Below are positions 8,422 to 28,643 of a DNA stretch of 29,543 bases, one piece after another (position 1 is the stretch's first letter; each line of letters opens with the position of its first letter). The stretch spans positions 1 through 29,543 of IMG/VR virus record IMGVR_UViG_3300046517_001487; one strand, given 5' to 3'. The position numbers and the translations under genes were made by a program. The notes below the pieces were generated by a model. It searched no databases, had not been told where the DNA came from, and saw only the letters and a list, made by a program, of their open reading frames with translations. Origin of the DNA: a virus.

Positions 8422-8600
8422 GGTGAGGGATGGCCTGAAAATTATCGTTATGCATCAACAGCCCCGAAAATCCCTCACCCTGCATCAAACAATTGAAAAC
8501 ACACAACATTGGCACATCTCTTGACCGCACCACTGCCTCATAAGCATCTGATTTAATTAGATTTTTTTTCAGGTGAGGGGGAAAAAGATAAAGGTGAGGG
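8422..8600. repeat. Cluster of GGTGAGGG repeats at the integrase 3' end; candidate attP region
   Basis: The octamer GGTGAGGG occurs on the plus strand at 8422, 8572 and 8593, and as its complement CCCTCACC at 8472. The first pair forms a 9-bp inverted repeat (GGTGAGGGA / TCCCTCACC). The 8572 and 8593 copies are direct repeats extended as GGTGAGGGGGAA-like and fall inside the last codons of integrase. The spacer from 8412 to 8552 has no gene and is AT-richer than its flanks. Clustered direct and inverted repeats beside an integrase gene are what arm-type or core binding sites look like. This is inference; no host att sequence is available to compare. Confidence 0.4.
8546..8569 (+). terminator. 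Possible weak rho-independent terminator after the lysis genes
   Basis: A short AT-rich imperfect hairpin (TCTGAT / ATTAGA with one wobble pair) is followed by a run of eight T. The stem is weak, but it lies between the convergent lysozyme and integrase genes where termination is expected. It overlaps the integrase stop codon. Confidence 0.3.
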
Positions 8601-9662
8601 GGAATTTGTTCGCTCATCGTTCTGTACGCGATCTGCATTGCCAAGCATGTGCCCGGCCGCCCGGCCGAGCCGATCCCGGTCTGCCGTCTTGGTATAAATC
8701 TCCGCCATCTGGTCCGACGTCCAGCCGAACAACGCCTTCAGCTGCTGGGTCGTGGCGCCGTTGTTGGCGGCCGTCGTGGCGGCAATCTTGCGAACCCCGT
8801 GAGCCGAGCCGGCAACCTGAGCCTGGTTGCAGGCTTCGCGAAACAGGTTGCCAAAACTCTCCTTGGTCAGCGGCTGGCCACCCTCGCCGACAATGAATGT
8901 CAGATCCCCGCACGGCCCTGCCTTCAGCGTCTCAGCCAGCACCGGCAGCACCGGCAACACCGCCATGACGGTCTCGCCACTCTTTTCGGTTTTGATGCGC
9001 CCCACGCCATCCCTGACGTGCTGGCGGCCATACCGAACGACATCCCCCCGCCGCAGTCCGCTGTACAACAGCACATCGAGCCAGACCCGCTGCCTCGTGC
9101 CGAGCGGCCAACGCGCCTGATACCGGGTCACGTCATCCTCGGTCCAGGCGACAAAACCGGCGCCGGCCTTGCGCGGCGGATTGCCGACCCCCGCTGTCGG
9201 GTCGCTCTTGATGTGCTCGGCGTCCGCCGCCCAGCGAAACAACCCACGCATGGCGTCAAGGAAATTGCGGGCCTGTGACGGTGTCTTGGCGCGGCGCTCC
9301 TTGCCGGCGACGATCGCCTTGCGATCGATCTTGCTCGCCGCAGTGTGACCCGCTGTCTCGATGACATGAACAAAGATGTTGTCGCGCTGCCGTCGGGTTG
9401 CCTCCGACAGCGCCATCCACCCGGCAGTCTCCCGGTAGCGATCCAACAGCCAAGCTAGACTACCAACCGTTGATTTTTTTTTGCCGGGTCGCCCTGTCCC
9501 GCCGCAAGCAATGGCAGCTTGGTATTCGGCGATAAATTCCGGACTGCCGAACGCCGCCTTGATCCTGGTCCGCGGCCCCTGATCAATACGAAAATACCAG
9601 ACCACTTTGCCATGCTGGGTAACCTGGCGAACCAGGTGCGGGAGGTGGGTCGGGCGTGGCAT
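8553..9662 (-). CDS. int: Site-specific tyrosine recombinase (phage integrase)
   Basis: A 369-aa tyrosine recombinase for phage integration and excision. An N-terminal arm/core-binding region precedes the catalytic domain, which shows LYSGLRRGDVV (box I Arg), then AHGVRKIAATT (H-x-x-R), then LFGWTSDQMAEIYTK. There Trp replaces the second His and Tyr is the nucleophile. I favour the ATG at 9662 (MPRPTHLPHLV) because AGGAT precedes it at a suitable distance and integrases of this type begin this way. An upstream ATG at 9701 overlaps the preceding stop (ATGA) and would add 13 residues. The C-terminus runs into the GGTGAGGG repeats. It is the last gene of a minus-strand operon from 10429. Confidence 0.9.
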   Translation of the reverse strand: MPRPTHLPHLVRQVTQHGKVVWYFRIDQGPRTRIKAAFGSPEFIAEYQAAIACGGTGRPGKKKSTVGSLAWLLDRYRETAGWMALSEATRRQRDNIFVHVIETAGHTAASKIDRKAIVAGKERRAKTPSQARNFLDAMRGLFRWAADAEHIKSDPTAGVGNPPRKAGAGFVAWTEDDVTRYQARWPLGTRQRVWLDVLLYSGLRRGDVVRYGRQHVRDGVGRIKTEKSGETVMAVLPVLPVLAETLKAGPCGDLTFIVGEGGQPLTKESFGNLFREACNQAQVAGSAHGVRKIAATTAANNGATTQQLKALFGWTSDQMAEIYTKTADRDRLGRAAGHMLGNADRVQNDERTNSPSPLSFSPSPEKKSN

Positions 9663-9688
9663 GGGATCGATCCTGATGAGGCGAGGTA

Positions 9689-9702
9689 TAGGACTTATCA
9701 TA
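9689..9702 (+). promoter_or_regulatory. Operator-like element (TAGGACTTATCATA)
   Basis: Member of the dispersed TAGGAC family. It overlaps the junction between the 62-aa gene and the upstream candidate start of integrase, where a bound repressor could affect int expression. Confidence 0.4.
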
Positions 9703-11436: not shown

Positions 11437-11450
11437 TAGGAATTTACCTA
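11437..11450. promoter_or_regulatory. Operator-like palindrome across repressor stop codon
   Basis: TAGGAATTTACCTA, with perfect 4-bp arms and an AT core. It covers the last codons and stop of the repressor gene, a position typical of stop-associated repressor sites rather than promoters. Confidence 0.45.
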
Positions 11451-12169
11451 CGCGGGAACACAGCCACCACCAGATGGCAGACCGGCCATTCCGATTTCTT
11501 CAAGCTGTAGACCTTGTGGGGCTTGTGCTGGCAGACCTTCCAGGCGCCGTCATTGGCCGACACCAGCTGCCGCACCAATACATTGGTATCGGGATCCGCT
11601 GACGACCGGAATAGACAGGCGTCACCATTCTTTGCCGGCAGATGCGGATGCACCTGGACAGTGGCGCCGTTCTTGACCTCTGGATCCATTGCATCGTCGA
11701 TGACGATCAAGCCGTAGGCGTCGTCGACATGCAATAAAAAATTCGGCCGCAACATGCGGTCGATCGGTTTCACACTCATGACCATCGCTCCTCCAGCAAC
11801 TTGAGTTGTTGCAAACACGGGGAGATCTTGCGTCATTTCACTTATAGGAAATAACCTCGGCGAGTCCAGCGGTATTTGCTTGCCGCCAATCACAGAGATG
11901 GCAGATGGCGCCTGCGATTGCAGGCGATCTCCATTTTTGGTGTAAGGCCGTGACGTGAGTGGTGTTGACTTACCGCGTAATTGATTTTCATCGATGCCGA
12001 GCAACTCGGCGAGCCTGATGCGCTCGCGTTCGTGCAATTCTTCCGGCACGCCTCTGCGCAAAAACTGCTGCAGATAGCTGGCGTTGCGGCCGATTTTGAG
12101 TGAGGCCTCGCTCATGCTGAGCCGCGCCTCTTCCAGTTGTTTTTTTATTAGTTCGCGCACGATGTCCAT
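11444..12169 (-). CDS. C1-like phage repressor with S24/LexA-type C-terminal domain
   Basis: A 241-aa repressor, the probable lysogeny master regulator. Residues ~15-60 form an XRE-type helix-turn-helix (SEASLKIGRNASYLQQFLRR) seen in alphaproteobacterial S24 repressors. Residues ~116-240 form the LexA/CI-like dimerisation domain: VAGGAM at the usual cleavage-site position, IVIDDAMDP where the family has G-D-S-M-x-P, and VLVRQLV where the catalytic Lys normally lies. Thus A160 replaces the nucleophilic Ser and Arg replaces Lys, so self-cleavage is not expected. It is divergent from the Cro-like gene, with operator-like sites at both gene ends and one inside. Induction is probably by something other than RecA-stimulated autocleavage. 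Confidence 0.85.
   Translation of the reverse strand: MDIVRELIKKQLEEARLSMSEASLKIGRNASYLQQFLRRGVPEELHERERIRLAELLGIDENQLRGKSTPLTSRPYTKNGDRLQSQAPSAISVIGGKQIPLDSPRLFPISEMTQDLPVFATTQVAGGAMVMSVKPIDRMLRPNFLLHVDDAYGLIVIDDAMDPEVKNGATVQVHPHLPAKNGDACLFRSSADPDTNVLVRQLVSANDGAWKVCQHKPHKVYSLKKSEWPVCHLVVAVFPRR
11845..11858. promoter_or_regulatory. Operator-like palindrome inside repressor gene
   Basis: TAGGAAATAACCTC, identical except for the last base to the element before the portal gene at 26578. It is intragenic, so it could act as a roadblock or be coincidental. Confidence 0.35.
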
Positions 12170-12510: not shown

Positions 12511-13083
12511 ATGACAGCGCAATCAGATCACTTTGCCCGGAGCTCTGCGGTTTCATCCCCTGTTACTGCAGATGCGGAGGGTGTCGCACTGTCCTCCTCG
12601 GTTCAGGGCGGCACCCGACGCACCCAACGCAACAGCGAACACCCGCCGTCACGCTGGCTGACCGAGTTGCTCGACCGGCGCCTGACAGAATTGCATGCGC
12701 TCAAGGGTGCCGACGCATTGTCGTTTGCAGAGATCGCCTGGCAACTGAACGACGAATTTTCGATGCACATGAGCCGCAATGCAGTGATCGGCCGCGTCCA
12801 CCGCATGCAGCTGCCGGGGCGCGTCACATTCAAGCGCCACGGCCGGCCGGTCAAAATCACCAAGAAACCGAAGATCAAGTTTGTCAAAACGATCAAACCC
12901 AAACCGGCGGCGCCGGCACAGCCGCGCAATCTGCCGCTGATCCAACTGCAGCATCACGACTGCCGCTTCGCCACGGTCGGTGACGAGGCGCCGTATCTGT
13001 TCTGCGCCCAGGCGACCGTCGAAAACAGTTCGTGGTGCGCCGTGCATTTCAAGGCCGTGCATAACGACGTGAGGTTGTTATGA
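12511..13083 (+). CDS. GcrA-like cell-cycle regulator
   Basis: A 190-aa GcrA-family protein. After a Ser/Thr-rich N-terminus, residues 48-104 contain the GcrA helix-turn-helix (ALSFAEIAWQLN, then MSRNAVIGRVHRMQLPGR). A basic Lys/Pro linker follows. The C-terminal family motif CRFATVGDEAPYLFC (151-165) comes next, with C176 and H179 in SSWCAVH. In Caulobacter, GcrA binds sigma-70 and activates promoters whose GANTC sites are adenine-methylated. The insertion (DEFSMH) within the first helix region is unusual. The stop overlaps the start of an adenine methyltransferase. A phage copy could redirect host or phage transcription by methylation state; that is inference. Confidence 0.85.
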   Translation: MTAQSDHFARSSAVSSPVTADAEGVALSSSVQGGTRRTQRNSEHPPSRWLTELLDRRLTELHALKGADALSFAEIAWQLNDEFSMHMSRNAVIGRVHRMQLPGRVTFKRHGRPVKITKKPKIKFVKTIKPKPAAPAQPRNLPLIQLQHHDCRFATVGDEAPYLFCAQATVENSSWCAVHFKAVHNDVRLL

Positions 13084-13730
13084 CCGACCCGTTCCATAAT
13101 CTACCGAAACAATATTTTAGGGCGATCCTCGCTGACCCGCCGTGGCATTTCCAGACATGGGCCAGGGCGCGCAAGAGCGGCGCTGGCATCGCCTGCCGCG
13201 CGTCAAAGCCCGCCTATGCCACCATGATTGATGAAGACATCGCGGCGTTGCCTCTGGCCGATCTGGCGGCCCCTGACTGTGTTCTATTCATGTGGACGTG
13301 CTGGCCCGTGTTGCAGCGTTCGTTCCATATTCTGGAGGCGTGGGGCTTTAAATATAAAACGTGCGCCTTCTCTTGGATGAAGGGCGACCCCTATCGGCTG
13401 TGGGCCGACGAATACACGCCACGCATGGGCTTGGGATACTGGACTCGCGCTAACACCGAGCCGTGCTTACTGGCGACACGGGGCAAGCCCAAGAGGATCG
13501 CCGCCGACATCAGGCAAGGCATTCTCGAGCAGCCCCGCGAACACTCACGGAAGCCCGACTGCGTACATGAGCGCATCGAGCGGCTGGTTGCTGGACCCTA
13601 TCTCGAACTGTTCGCCCGCGCCCGGCGCGATGGCTGGACCGTGTGGGGCAACCAGACCGACAAATTCACCGAAGCACCGCGGAAGAAATTCGCGGAAATT
13701 TGGGACCACCCTTACTCGCATGAAACTTGA
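13080..13730 (+). CDS. MT-A70 family adenine-N6 DNA methyltransferase
   Basis: A 216-aa enzyme that transfers methyl from S-adenosylmethionine to N6 of adenine. The catalytic motif DPPW is at residues 19-22 within FRAILADPPWHFQTW. Family segments follow: FMWTCWPVLQRSFHILEAWG, then LGYWTRANTEPCLLATRGKP, then HSRKPDCVHERIERLV. The start overlaps the upstream GcrA-like gene by ATGA. The 3' end overlaps the VRR-NUC gene by 11 bases. Phage enzymes of this family often protect DNA from restriction. The adjacent GcrA-like gene adds a possible transcription role. The target site cannot be read from sequence. Confidence 0.9.
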   Translation: MTDPFHNLPKQYFRAILADPPWHFQTWARARKSGAGIACRASKPAYATMIDEDIAALPLADLAAPDCVLFMWTCWPVLQRSFHILEAWGFKYKTCAFSWMKGDPYRLWADEYTPRMGLGYWTRANTEPCLLATRGKPKRIAADIRQGILEQPREHSRKPDCVHERIERLVAGPYLELFARARRDGWTVWGNQTDKFTEAPRKKFAEIWDHPYSHET

Positions 13731-16371: not shown

Positions 16372-16908
16372 ATGACCGCCTACTACAACGAGAACGACCC
16401 CTATGCCGCGCAATGGCTCAGAAATCTCGTTGCTGCAGGCCAAATTGCGCCGGGGGATGTGGATGAGCGAAACATACAGGACGTATCCGCAGATGATCTC
16501 AGACCTTATACGCAGGCCCATTTCTTCGCCGGGATCGGCGGGTGGTCCGTCGCCCTGCGGCTCGCCGGATGGCCCGACGACCGACCTGTTTGGACCGGTT
16601 CCTGCCCCTGCCAGCCCTTCTCGGCCGCCGGGAAAGGCAAGGCAGGCAATGACGAACGCCACCTGTGGCCTCAATGGTTTTCTCTCATCGCCCAGCGGCG
16701 TCCTGCAATCATCTTTGGTGAGCAGGTTGAAGCGGCAATTGGATGGGGCTGGCTCGACGTTGTTCTCGCTGACCTGGAAGGCGCGGGGTACGCCTGCGGG
16801 GCGTCCGTACTACCAGCTTGCGGTGTCGGGGCGCCCCACATCCGAAGTAGGCTTTGGTTCGTGGCCCACGCCCAACATGGACGACGACAACAACAGCTGG
16901 GCGGCTGA
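16372..16908 (+). CDS. C5-cytosine DNA methyltransferase, N-terminal catalytic part
   Basis: A 178-residue frame with the conserved core of Dcm-type methyltransferases: motif I HFFAGIGGWS (FAGIGG, residues 51-57), motif IV GSCPCQPFS with catalytic C80, motif VI as FGEQV, and motif VIII GAPHIRSRLWFVA. A stop at 16906 ends the frame before any target-recognition domain. A second in-frame stop lies near 17078. The same frame resumes with a motif-X-like end at 17095-17511. Most of it is overlapped by another open frame (16403-17497). Either it acts as a fragment, or frameshifting joins the parts, or the gene is decayed. The N-terminal motifs are all intact, which argues against old decay. Confidence 0.8.
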   Translation: MTAYYNENDPYAAQWLRNLVAAGQIAPGDVDERNIQDVSADDLRPYTQAHFFAGIGGWSVALRLAGWPDDRPVWTGSCPCQPFSAAGKGKAGNDERHLWPQWFSLIAQRRPAIIFGEQVEAAIGWGWLDVVLADLEGAGYACGASVLPACGVGAPHIRSRLWFVAHAQHGRRQQQLGG

Positions 16909-17497
16909 CCCGCAGGCCTACAGCGCCAAGCACATGGCGCGGGACCAGTCATCGAGCAATCTGGCAATCACGGCGCTGGCGAGTTGGCCGACAACACAAT
17001 CACGGGATGGCAGTCACGGCGGCGCGCAGGCCAAGCGGGCGATGGGCGAGACCCGGCACGGCTCGAACCTCGATGACTTCGCGATGCTGGCGGCATGGAT
17101 CACGCCGCAGGCGCACGACACCACGGTGCGCGGCAACACCAATGCCGACCACCACTACGCACCGCACGATTTATTGAACCAGGCTTTGACCGTGGAGGCA
17201 GCATCATGGGCGACACCGCAGGCGGCGGATGTGAACCACGCGCGGGGCAGCAAGGAATACGCCCTGCGAACGATGAACCGGCCACAACCGCCTCACAACA
17301 ATGCGCTGTTGGCGCATCTAACCCCTGGGCCGACCTCGAATGGCTCGCCTGCAGCGACGGCAAAGCGCGGCCAACTCAACCCGGACTTTTCCCGCTGGCT
17401 CATGGGCTACGCAACCGGGCATCTAAGCTGCGCGCCTACGGCAATGCCATCGTCCCGCAAGTCGCCGCAGAGTTCATCAAGGCCGTCCTCGAAGTGA
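16403..17497 (+). CDS. Out-of-frame gene overlapping the C5-methyltransferase, with WPTP-like repeats
   Basis: A long frame (364 codons) offset by one base from the methyltransferase frame. The true start is uncertain; ATG 16463, seven bases after GGGGG, is plausible. Its first part is the shadow of methyltransferase motifs (SPDGPTTDLFGPVPAPASPS). Its middle, ~16850-17290, has no competing frame and reads as real protein with repeats spaced by 30-50 residues: SWPTPNMDD, SWPTTQSRDG, AWITPQAHDT, SWATPQAADV. The end, QLNPDFSRWLMGY then SCAPTAMPSSRK, resembles proteins I recall from other phages. It may carry the missing target-recognition region. Function unknown. Confidence 0.6.
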   Translation: MPRNGSEISLLQAKLRRGMWMSETYRTYPQMISDLIRRPISSPGSAGGPSPCGSPDGPTTDLFGPVPAPASPSRPPGKARQAMTNATCGLNGFLSSPSGVLQSSLVSRLKRQLDGAGSTLFSLTWKARGTPAGRPYYQLAVSGRPTSEVGFGSWPTPNMDDDNNSWAADPQAYSAKHMARDQSSSNLAITALASWPTTQSRDGSHGGAQAKRAMGETRHGSNLDDFAMLAAWITPQAHDTTVRGNTNADHHYAPHDLLNQALTVEAASWATPQAADVNHARGSKEYALRTMNRPQPPHNNALLAHLTPGPTSNGSPAATAKRGQLNPDFSRWLMGYATGHLSCAPTAMPSSRKSPQSSSRPSSK

Positions 17498-17511
17498 TCG
17501 AACGCGAATGA
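17095..17511 (+). pseudogene. C5-methyltransferase C-terminal fragment (motif IX/X region)
   Basis: Same reading frame as the N-terminal part at 16372 but separated by stops at 16906 and about 17078. The recognisable part begins near 17320: NPWADLEWLACSDGKARPTQ, then PGLFPLAHGLRN, then KLRAYGNAIVPQVAAEFIK, the motif X that completes the SAM-binding fold. Its stop overlaps the primase-helicase start (ATGA), as in a working operon. The first ATG in the fragment (17095) may not be a start. It could be reached by frameshifting from the overlapping frame, or be a remnant. Confidence 0.5.
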
Positions 17512-23746: not shown

Positions 23747-25240
23747 ATGCAAGTGCCTCTGGCCCGTGACCAGAACGACTGGTCGCCCAAGGCGGTCGAT
23801 GCCGTCAAGGTCGCGGCCGAGTTGATCCGGCGCAAGGACAGCGCTGCGCATCTGATCGATTTCACGGAATATACGTTCCCGAGGTATCGCACCGCACCGC
23901 ACCATCGGCTGATTGCCGGGCAGCTCGAGCGTGTCGAGAACGGCGAGATCGATCGATTGATGTTGCTGGTGCCGCCGCGGCACGGCAAAAGCGAGTTGGC
24001 ATCCCACCGTTTCCCGGCCTGGTTTCTGGGGAGACAACCGGACAAGCAGTTCATCTCGGTGTCGGCGACCGAGAGCCTCGCCACCGATTTCGGCCGGGCG
24101 GTCAGGAACACCATCGGCTCGAACGAATACAAATGCATTTTCGAGACCACGACGCTGGCAGAGGATAGTCAAGCCAGAGGCAAGTGGCACACCAGCGCCG
24201 GCGGCATTTATTATGCGCTCGGAATCGGCGGCGCCATCCTCGGCCGCGGCGGCGACGTGATCCTGATCGATGATCCATATGCATCGATGGCCGACGCGAT
24301 GTCGGAGCTGACAAGAAAGAATGTTTGGGATTGGTATGGCGGGACGGCCTACAACCGGCTGATGCCGGGCGGCAGAATTATTATTATTAATCACCGGATG
24401 CACGAGGATGATCTGTGCGGGCAGTTGCTGGCGCAGCAGCACGCCGGCGGCGACAAGTTTACGGTGGTCGAATTGCCAGCCATCAAGGACGATGGCACCG
24501 CATTGTGGGACGACGCCTATCCGATCGAGACGCTGGAACGGATCCGGAGAAATACCCAGCCCAGGTTTTGGTCAAGCCTGTACATGCAGAACCCGACGCC
24601 GGACGAGGGCGATTATTTCAAGCTGGATTGGCTGAAGCCCTATGATCTGCCTCCTGATCGCCAGACCATGCGGGTGTACGGCGGTAGTGACTATGCGGTC
24701 ACCGACAGCGGCGGCGATTATACGGTTCATGCGGTGGTTGGCATTGATCCCGACGCCAGAATGTTTCTGCTCGACGTGTGGCGGAAGCAGGCTGCCTCCG
24801 ACCAGTGGGTCGAGGCGTTCTGCGACTTGGTGAAAAAGTGGAAGCCGTTGGGCTGGGCCGAGGAGCAGGGCCAGATCAAGTCCGGTGTCGGTCCCTGGCT
24901 CGAGAGACGACAAAGGCAGCGCGAGGCGTATTGCTATCGCGAGCAGTTCCCGACCAGAGGCGACAAGGCCATTCGGGCCCAGTCGATTCGAGGAAGGATG
25001 GCGCTTGAGGGTCTCTACGTTCCCGAACACGCCAAATGGTATCCGGCGTTCCGCTCCGAGTTGTTGAGTTTCCCCGCCGGCAAGCACGACGATCAGGTCG
25101 ATGCGATCGGCCTCATTGGGCAGTTGCTTGACAGAATGTCGGCCGGGATCCGGGCGAAAAAGCCCGATGCGCCGATCCAGTTGTCTGGCTACCGGGCGAT
25201 GCGCGAGGTGGCGGGGGTGGATGAGTTCAAGACGTATTGA
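23747..25240 (+). CDS. terL: Terminase large subunit
   Basis: A 497-aa ATPase-nuclease that packages DNA into the prohead through the portal. The ATPase shows VPPRHGKSE (residues 75-83) as Walker A, adenine-region QFISVSATESLATDFGRAV, and Walker B GDVILIDDPYAS (~168-179). The C-terminal RNase-H-like nuclease has GGSDYAVTDSGGDYTVHAVV (metal-binding Asp), a WAEEQGQIKSG segment and the final KHDDQVDAIGL. Length and layout are normal for tailed-phage TerL. There is no ribosome site; an operator-like element abuts the ATG. The partner small subunit is uncertain. Confidence 0.93.
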   Translation: MQVPLARDQNDWSPKAVDAVKVAAELIRRKDSAAHLIDFTEYTFPRYRTAPHHRLIAGQLERVENGEIDRLMLLVPPRHGKSELASHRFPAWFLGRQPDKQFISVSATESLATDFGRAVRNTIGSNEYKCIFETTTLAEDSQARGKWHTSAGGIYYALGIGGAILGRGGDVILIDDPYASMADAMSELTRKNVWDWYGGTAYNRLMPGGRIIIINHRMHEDDLCGQLLAQQHAGGDKFTVVELPAIKDDGTALWDDAYPIETLERIRRNTQPRFWSSLYMQNPTPDEGDYFKLDWLKPYDLPPDRQTMRVYGGSDYAVTDSGGDYTVHAVVGIDPDARMFLLDVWRKQAASDQWVEAFCDLVKKWKPLGWAEEQGQIKSGVGPWLERRQRQREAYCYREQFPTRGDKAIRAQSIRGRMALEGLYVPEHAKWYPAFRSELLSFPAGKHDDQVDAIGLIGQLLDRMSAGIRAKKPDAPIQLSGYRAMREVAGVDEFKTY

Positions 25241-26591: not shown

Positions 26592-26597
26592 GTGGCA

Positions 26598-28643
26598 ATG
26601 ACTTACGCACCGCAGCCGCAACCGCCGCGGGGCGGCAGCTATGGCGACAACGACAAGCGACCCGACGACGATGACGATGACGACGACACCGGCATCGCGT
26701 TTCTGCGGAGGCAGTATCAGGACTTTGCCGCGGCCAAGTACGCCGAGGGCGAGGAGATGTTGGAGGCGCGGCACTACTATCACGGCGACCAGTGGACCAA
26801 GGAAGAGATCCGGGTGTTGCGCAATCGCAAGCAGCCGGTGGTCACCTCAAACCGCATCGTCCGCAAGATCGATGCCGTGGTCGGCCTGGTCGAGCGACTG
26901 CGGCAGGATCCCAAGGCGTTCGCCCGCACGCCGCGGCACGACCAGGGCGCCGAAGTAGCGACGGCGGTCTTGCGCTTTTGCCTGGACAGCAACGACTGGG
27001 CGTCGAAGAGCTCGCGGATCGCCAGGGGCGCCGCGATCGATGGCCTGGCCGGCATCGAATATGATTTGGTGCCGGGCGATACCGGCGACCCGTCGCTGGA
27101 AATGCACATCGTTTACGGCGACGGCTTCTTCTACGACCCGACCTCCTACGACGAGGGCTTCACCGACTGCCGGTATATGGGTGTCGCTAAGTGGATGGAT
27201 CGCGATCACGCTAAAGAACTCGCGCCCCATAAAGCCCAGGAAATTGATGACCTAGTTGAGTCCGGCAGCGACTTGGTCAATGTCAGCGAGTTCGACAAGG
27301 AGAAGAATTGGTTCAATCGATCTTCGAAAAAAATTCGGATGATCGACCATTGGTACATCAAGGGCGGCAAGTGGCGATGGTGTTGGTATGCCGGCGATGT
27401 CGAGTTGGGGCGCGGCAACAGTCCGTTTGTCGACGAGAAGGGCAAGACCTTTCCGCGCTACCGGATGTTCTCGGCCTACGTCGACCACGACGGCGACCGC
27501 TACGGTCCGATCCGCAATCTGAAATCGCCGCAGGACGAGATCAACCATCGGCGCTCCAAGTCGCTGCATCTGCTCAACTCGCGCAAGGTGATCAGCGAAA
27601 AAGGCGCGGTCGACGACATCGAGGTGTCGCGCCGCGAGTGGGCCAAGGCCGACGGCTGGGTTGAGGTCAATCCCGGCCTGAAAATGGAGCCCGACACCAC
27701 CACCTTGAACGACTTCAAGGGCCAGCTCGAACTTTTGCAGGAAGCCAAGAACGAGATCGAGAATTTCGGCCCCAATCCGGCGCTGATCGGGCAGGGGCTG
27801 GAGGACAGTTCGGGCAGAGCTATCCAGTTGCTGCAGCAGGCCGGCATCGCCGAGCTCGGGCCGTATCTGACGGCGTTCAAGAACTGGAAAATCCGGGTCT
27901 ATCGCGATTGCTGGAACATCGTGCAGCGGCACTGGAAGCAGGAGCGCTGGATCCGCGTCACCGACGACCAGAATGTCGCGCAATTTTTCCAGGCCAACAA
28001 ATTGGAGCTTGACCAGTTCGGCCGGCCGATGATCGTCAACGATCTGGGCTCGCTCGATGTCGACATCATCATCGACGAGGGCCCCGACACCGTGAACATG
28101 CAGAGCGACGCGATGCAGGTGCTGCAGTCGCTCGGCCCGCAATTCCTGCAGCAGTTCCCGGAGATTGCCATTACGTTGGCGCCGCTTCCCGCTTCAGTCA
28201 AAAAGCCGATGATCGACAAGATCCAGATGCAGATGAACAAGCCGCCGCCGCCGGATCCGAAGATGATGGCGATCCAGGCCAAAGCGCAGGGCGACGCCCA
28301 GGAACGGCAACAGGATGCCATGCTGGAGCAGCAAAAGGCCCAGCGCGAGAACGCCCAGGCCCAGCAGGACGCGGTGCTGAAGCAGCAGGCCGCCGATCGC
28401 GATTTCGCCAACCAGGTGCGTCAGCAGCAATTCGACGAGCAGGCGCGGCAGCGCGAGGCGCAGCACGATGCCATGCTGCAGCGGATGGCGGCGCAGAACG
28501 AAGCAATGATCGAACGCATGAAGGCCTCTGCCGAAATCGCCATCGCCCACATCCAGGCGCAGGCGAAGATGCAGATCGCCGCCGATGCCCATGAGCAACA
28601 GATGGCGCAGGCCGAAGAGACGGCCGCGACCGGCATCGAATGA
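26598..28643 (+). CDS. Portal protein, P22-like
   Basis: A 681-aa portal, the dodecameric DNA channel at the capsid vertex. ATG 26598 is chosen; GTG 26592 would add two residues. An acidic low-complexity head with eight successive Asp is followed by family segments: EARHYYHGDQWTKEEIRVL, PVVTSNRIVRKIDAVVGLVE, FFYDPTSYDEGFTDCRYMGV, DDEIN-like QDEINHRRSKSLHLLNSRKV and GRAIQLLQQAGIAELGPYL. These are characteristic of P22-like (podovirus) portals. The C-terminal ~150 residues are a long Gln/Ala-rich coiled coil, like the P22 barrel region. Scaffold-like gene follows, as in P22-type head modules. Confidence 0.9.
   Translation: MTYAPQPQPPRGGSYGDNDKRPDDDDDDDDTGIAFLRRQYQDFAAAKYAEGEEMLEARHYYHGDQWTKEEIRVLRNRKQPVVTSNRIVRKIDAVVGLVERLRQDPKAFARTPRHDQGAEVATAVLRFCLDSNDWASKSSRIARGAAIDGLAGIEYDLVPGDTGDPSLEMHIVYGDGFFYDPTSYDEGFTDCRYMGVAKWMDRDHAKELAPHKAQEIDDLVESGSDLVNVSEFDKEKNWFNRSSKKIRMIDHWYIKGGKWRWCWYAGDVELGRGNSPFVDEKGKTFPRYRMFSAYVDHDGDRYGPIRNLKSPQDEINHRRSKSLHLLNSRKVISEKGAVDDIEVSRREWAKADGWVEVNPGLKMEPDTTTLNDFKGQLELLQEAKNEIENFGPNPALIGQGLEDSSGRAIQLLQQAGIAELGPYLTAFKNWKIRVYRDCWNIVQRHWKQERWIRVTDDQNVAQFFQANKLELDQFGRPMIVNDLGSLDVDIIIDEGPDTVNMQSDAMQVLQSLGPQFLQQFPEIAITLAPLPASVKKPMIDKIQMQMNKPPPPDPKMMAIQAKAQGDAQERQQDAMLEQQKAQRENAQAQQDAVLKQQAADRDFANQVRQQQFDEQARQREAQHDAMLQRMAAQNEAMIERMKASAEIAIAHIQAQAKMQIAADAHEQQMAQAEETAATGIE

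Follow-up and report, generated by a model that had tools for sequence, protein, structure and literature searches.

A probable two-subunit cytosine-5 DNA methyltransferase encoded in overlapping reading frames of phages, with an interrupted large-subunit gene in one viral contig

In a 29.5-kb viral contig (the window, numbered here over its whole stretch), parts of a cytosine-5 DNA methyltransferase are spread over two overlapping reading frames, which raises the question of whether the locus is a broken gene, one protein read through changes of frame, or a pair of genes. The first-pass annotation had described a methyltransferase split by stops, with its missing middle carried by an overlapping open frame, and had proposed that either two compensating frame changes rebuild a full enzyme or two proteins share the DNA. 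The window also encodes an integrase (8553-9701), an S24-type repressor (11444-12169), a terminase (23747-25240) and a P22-like portal protein (26592-28643), given which the phage is probably temperate. A second DNA methyltransferase gene, of the MT-A70 family (7e-24), lies upstream on the same strand at 13080-13730.

On the plus strand, frame 1 is open from 16372 to 16908 (178 aa), and its product, the N-terminal piece of a protein that we call alpha, matched PF00145 (9e-17, over the curated cut-off), phrog_363 (4e-69) and, by sequence, M.HhaI. The signatures of C5-cytosine DNA methyltransferases claimed earlier for this stretch were all found in it (motif I FxGxGG, IV PCQ, VI E(N/Q)V and VIII RxR), here as HFFAGIGG near 16519, PCQPFS at 16606-16623, GEQV near 16717 and HIRSR at 16837-16851, behind a start that resembles motifs II/III. 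This motif order is unusual and is shared by the alpha family (window 16372-16620 and homologues): a II/III-like AYYNExDPYAAQWLRNL...DERSIxDV precedes motif I (HFFAGIGGW), and IV follows; the alphas of Paenibacillus phages and of an archaeal plasmid have the usual order, and an overlapping second gene is nonetheless present there. Frame 1 is stopped by TGA C at 16906-16908, as first described, and again by TGA C at 17074-17076, not near 17078 as had been given. Recoding of TGA as an amino acid was rejected, because the alpha homologues and other genes of the window end in TGA. The frame-1 ORF at 17095-17511 matched the C-terminal part of phrog_363 (1.5e-10), and motif X therefore truly returns in frame 1, near 17428-17508 (GNAIVPQ at 17440-17460), in a C-terminal piece of alpha (17206-17511, plus strand) that is severed from the N-terminal one.

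Frame 2 (+1 relative to alpha) is open from ATG 16403, and slightly further upstream too, to a stop at 17495-17497 (364 aa), and matched phrog_1008, labelled “DNA methyltransferase” (7e-26). We call its product beta, the most likely start of which is ATG 16493 (16493-17497, plus strand, 334 aa). The four W-x-T-P/T-like repeats noticed earlier were located at 16859-17224, where the units SWPTPNM, SWPTTQS, AWITPQA and SWATPQA start at 16859, 16982, 17093 and 17204 (frame-2 residues 153, 194, 231 and 268). They are followed by a motif-IX-like segment, LNPDFSRWLMGYATGHLSC (17375-17431), and the protein ends in LNPDFSRWLMGY...CAPTAMPSSRK. The recognition region, IX and X are thus not found in one chain with I-VIII; since IX is in frame 2 and X in frame 1 past two stops, the locus consists of C5-methyltransferase parts that form no single standard chain.

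Scanning viral contigs yielded 80 relatives, most of which have frame 1 unbroken from its start to motif X and frame 2 open over a nearly equal stretch. The rule in the family is therefore a +1 overlap over the full length, from which the window departs by its broken frame 1. The description of a methyltransferase split by stops accordingly holds for the window (and, at another place, for its nearest relative, L001) but not for nearly all homologues, in which frame 1 is whole. There, alpha is one large polypeptide with motifs I-VIII and X and without IX; in the window this chain is broken between VIII and X. In bacterial genomes, scanning turned up 171 places; the 80 best of them come mostly from Proteobacteria and also from Acidobacteria, Planctomycetota, Verrucomicrobia, Omnitrophota and Leptospiraceae. 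Both genes are annotated in the two-frame locus of Xanthomonas phage PhiXhv-18, and the same layout was recognized on reading both frames in N15, epsilon15, BcepC6B, RcKeef, OwlsT2W (a mycobacteriophage), Microbacterium R1, Lacticaseibacillus R9.2 and Stenotrophomonas S72. It is also present in an archaeal (Methanomethylovorans) plasmid, and the plasmid match in Klebsiella to the N15 alpha query is a phage-like plasmid. The alpha/beta pairing has a wide distribution, which takes in phages, prophages and some plasmids. A Bacteroides finegoldii plasmid (L114:901-2000) resembles the window in that frame 1 is interrupted mid-gene and the +1 beta is intact, the locus being annotated in fragments only. 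In Erythrobacter phage R6L (L112:1201-2242), alpha is unannotated, and an ORF on the opposite strand (gp54) together with a part of the overlap was called instead. Our literature search, incomplete in its coverage, found no paper describing a phage-wide overlap of this kind.

The openness of frame 2 was compared with chance by holding the frame-1 protein fixed, shuffling synonymous codons and counting frame-2 stops. In the window alone (one genome), frame 2 would be open over 16493-16905 by chance with P=0.037. Across the I-VIII overlap of 61 homologous loci, one frame-2 stop was found against about 83 expected, compared with 270 against 229 expected in the frame-3 control, in shuffles that ignore the kinship of the sequences. 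Similarity in frame 2 exceeded the expectation too, but because the sequences are related, frame 3 also exceeds its expected identity, which makes similarity in frame 2 a weak measure, and the argument therefore rests on the stop counts and on a switch in codon-position constraint. In five loci of lower GC content (Lily, Kiel007, S72, R9.2 and the archaeal plasmid; 43-54% GC), 0 of 1,000 shuffles left frame 2 open.

Among the viral contigs, the difference rates at frame-1 codon positions 1/2/3 were 0.152/0.115/0.311 in the N-terminal part (I-VIII), 0.310/0.187/0.146 in the middle, where position 1 coincides with frame-2 position 3, and 0.202/0.116/0.180 in the C-terminal part (the IX/X end). 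The constrained frame thus switches from frame 1 over I-VIII to frame 2 in the middle and to both at the IX/X end, and the switch was replicated in 62 loci drawn separately from bacterial genomes (middle 0.377/0.227/0.197; C-terminal part 0.196/0.122/0.201). The ratio of third- to first-position substitutions in frame 1 was 3.2-5.4 upstream of the beta start (pairs of 65-96% identity) and 1.9 within the overlap. When frame 2 was held fixed instead, the middle contained 0 frame-1 stops against 259 expected in 69 genome loci, and 3 against 173 expected in 52 viral loci, all 3 of them in the window and L001. The middle of alpha, in which the frame is kept open though the amino acids are scarcely conserved, is a poorly constrained linker joining VIII to X. 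The two-frame locus is no mere broken gene: alpha and beta share DNA at +1, and both are conserved. The earlier suggestion of two proteins with selection in both frames is thereby borne out, and the test for the opposite outcome, conservation in frame 1 alone and drift in frame 2, came out negative.

The position at which beta begins is marked in the homologues as well, where frame-2 stops are frequent up to about alpha codon 40-45 and nearly absent beyond. Alpha Asp36 is encoded by GAT in 77% of the homologues against a background of 32% (p=1.5e-21), and GAT at this residue creates a frame-2 ATG. A beta start via GAT/ATG at alpha codon 36 or 40 was present in 102 of the 124 dereplicated homologues, and codons that form a Shine-Dalgarno sequence (GGAG) are enriched upstream of it. 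The beta start codon is under selection; its counterpart in the window is the ATG at alpha codon 40, at position 16493.

The nature of beta is indicated by enzymes that have all parts in one frame. In the mycobacteriophages Moonbeam, WillSterrel and Babsiella, a single chain runs from motif VIII through LPTPxAxD repeats and PAFPEWMMGWPAGW (motif IX) to GNGVVPQQAA (motif X). The beta profile matched these enzymes with 95.6% probability (E=1.3e-8) over repeats and motif IX, and since the match falls in their VIII-X stretch, frame 2 carries the missing middle, as had been proposed from the window. The repeats, which are variable and lie in a region constrained in frame 2 in the homologues, align between VIII and IX of the single-frame enzymes and are presumed to be the target-recognition region. 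The IX-like segment is a conserved feature of the beta family. It aligned to RLxPAFPEWMMGWPAGW, a sequence that in four loci (L108, L110, L109 and L098) is fused in frame to motif X. Members of the L015 and L032 types have very little sequence between VIII and IX, so the repeats cannot be the sole recognition site across all members. The gene gp88 of Gordonia phage CheeseTouch (L101:1309-2343) has LPTP repeats in frame 2 and IX and X in frame 1; it is possibly an intermediate between the single-frame and two-frame forms, an arrangement indicating that transfer of parts between frames probably happened on more than one occasion. Counted from alpha, two further loci (L025:2492-3900 and L026:2009-3000) have X in frame 2 and IX in frame 3, which looks like the effect of a mid-gene indel that displaced both frames.

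The AlphaFold model of an intact alpha (from L006) was confident for the large domain and the motif-X helix and disordered in the middle; its best match was M.HhaI (Z 15.5, rmsd 2.7, 161 residues), beginning at M.HhaI residue 34. Beta modelled alone was poor (pLDDT 56), only the motif-IX helix and a helix-hairpin being ordered, a result consistent with folding on alpha but no proof of it. No significant match to beta was found in Pfam, NCBIfam, PDB sequences or PDB folds; the absence of a fold match does not imply a new fold, because the beta model is poor.

We consider it probable that the overlapping frames of the locus specify the two subunits of one cytosine-5 DNA methyltransferase, similar to M.EcoHK31I. 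Alpha, in frame 1, would form the large domain for AdoMet binding and catalysis (motifs I-VIII, including PCQ) together with the C-terminal motif-X helix, and beta, starting within alpha at +1, would supply the variable WxTP repeats and motif IX, i.e., the parts that lie between VIII and X in ordinary enzymes and form their target-recognition side. We infer that alpha and beta would associate physically into one active enzyme and that the repeats would recognize DNA. A rival account is programmed frameshifting, with a +1 shift after VIII and a return before X yielding one full-length enzyme. The single-frame relatives, whose one chain runs from VIII through repeats and IX to X, would agree with it, and so would the first stop of the window, UGA C, a context familiar from the site of frameshifting in prfB. 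However, the homologues are open in both frames throughout and their frame 1 runs unbroken to X in nearly all, so that the two compensating frame changes suggested earlier are unnecessary; the stops of the window are not common to its relatives, and beta has its own selected start with Shine-Dalgarno-forming codons, which would be superfluous for a frameshift product. The slippery sequences that were to be sought near the frame junctions did not appear either (no slippery heptamer and no run of more than 4 bases in 16830-16920, 17040-17110 and 17270-17345), and we judge frameshifting to be very improbable. Hardly any credence is due to the idea that only frame 1 is a gene and that frame 2 is an incidental open frame in GC-rich DNA: long spurious ORFs do occur in high-GC genomes and the N-terminal part is better conserved in frame 1, but the middle is constrained in frame 2 and not in frame 1, and the stop count over I-VIII, the frame-3 control, an open frame 2 even at 43-49% GC, where chance would very seldom leave it open, the selected start and the match to single-frame enzymes all point the other way.

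Within the two-subunit interpretation, the alpha of the window, cut twice between VIII and X, may have been inactivated recently, or both its ends may still be made separately. Frame 1 of L001, the nearest relative at 91% over the N-terminal part of alpha, is also interrupted, by a TAG at a different place, which implies that alpha was recently broken or is made in pieces in this clade. In the comparison of the window with L001 frame by frame, frame-1 identity is 92% in the N-terminal and 92% in the C-terminal part of alpha (the latter compared over 65 codons only), frame-2 identity is 87% and 77% over the same parts, and third positions are the most variable in both, a substitution pattern indicating that frame-1 selection acts on the ends of alpha or did so until recently. 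A Shine-Dalgarno scan of this single sequence gave ATG 17206, with GGAGG 7 nt upstream, as a candidate internal start from which the C-terminal piece of alpha could be made separately. That the locus yields three polypeptides from two frames, i.e., the alpha N-terminal piece (16372-16908), beta (16493-17497) and a motif-X peptide started at ATG 17206, with the linker lost and both ends of alpha still under frame-1 selection, seems to us unlikely on balance; recent loss of alpha is at least as reasonable as separate synthesis of its C-terminal piece. The broken alpha means that this copy may be dead. We give a chance only somewhat short of even to a recent pseudogene, i.e., a real family enzyme of which this copy is dead and retains residual conservation only, a reading compatible with the two-subunit explanation of the family. 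Two frame-1 stops in the window compared with 0 across 69 genome loci, the different stop of L001, and a relative that lacks the module, which is therefore dispensable, favor it, against which stand the frame-1 constraint that window-L001 substitutions still follow at both ends of alpha (few codons, 65, in the C-terminal part) and the fact that frame 2 has stayed open. The relative in question, L106 (L106:1-3300), is close by its primase gene (88%) and is without the methyltransferase and the adjoining small minus-strand genes, so that an insertion or a deletion of the module has taken place. It is improbable that the stops arose as errors in the assembly or sequencing of a metagenomic contig: the window is a single contig for which no near-identical second record was found, and L004, with a stop just before its X segment, departs from intact forms at one W/stop codon, but two independent substitution errors would be needed, both harmless to frame 2, and L001 bears a stop of its own.

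If the two-subunit explanation is true, a textbook enzyme family offers a natural case of one function split over two frames of the same DNA, with the frames locked together, since most mutations in either frame also affect the other. The two-frame enzyme is far commoner than annotation shows, and what is unusual in the window is the broken alpha. Annotation usually calls one of the two genes, over a spread that covers phages and prophages of several phyla and an archaeal plasmid; many records of a “DNA cytosine methyltransferase” would then be without the motif-IX subunit, and the annotated gene expressed alone should fail. Single-frame, two-frame and broken forms all exist, which provides a large testable set for the birth and upkeep of overlapping genes.

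Among known systems, the families phrog_363 (alpha) and phrog_1008 (beta) are both labelled DNA methyltransferase and catalogued separately, with no link between them in the search output. Moonbeam gp69, WillSterrel gp71 and Babsiella gp54 have the same motifs, LPTPxAxD repeats and a PAFPEWMMGWPxGW motif IX, but with everything in one frame and one chain. The Paenibacillus phages Lily (gp62/gp63, “g62 internal gene”) and Kiel007 (gp52/gp53) share the two-frame organization, both genes being annotated as DNA methyltransferase; unlike in the window, their alpha is intact and has the usual motif order, and the overlap carries no assigned function. To our knowledge, there is one characterized precedent for a two-frame enzyme of such a kind. 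M.EcoHK31I belongs to a plasmid restriction-modification system, and in the literature of 1995 its small-subunit gene reportedly lies largely inside the large-subunit gene, in another frame. Fragments of M.SssI split between VIII and the recognition domain reassemble (PMC3404938). In M.AquI, a second polypeptide bears motif IX and a portion of the variable region, as proposed here, and X accompanies IX on this small subunit (PMC3404938), whereas the phage family has IX in one frame and X in another, with nearly complete overlap of the genes. M.EcoHK31I and M.EaeI consist of two polypeptides, the larger with I-VIII and X and the smaller with IX, and the predicted recognition domain of M.EcoHK31I is assigned to the large subunit (PMC3404938). 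Likened by motif layout as described, the phage homologues agree with these two enzymes in a large chain with I-VIII and X but without IX, and in a IX that is placed on a second polypeptide from another frame; they differ in that the variable repeats are in beta, that the genes are mostly those of phages and prophages, and that alpha is interrupted in the window.
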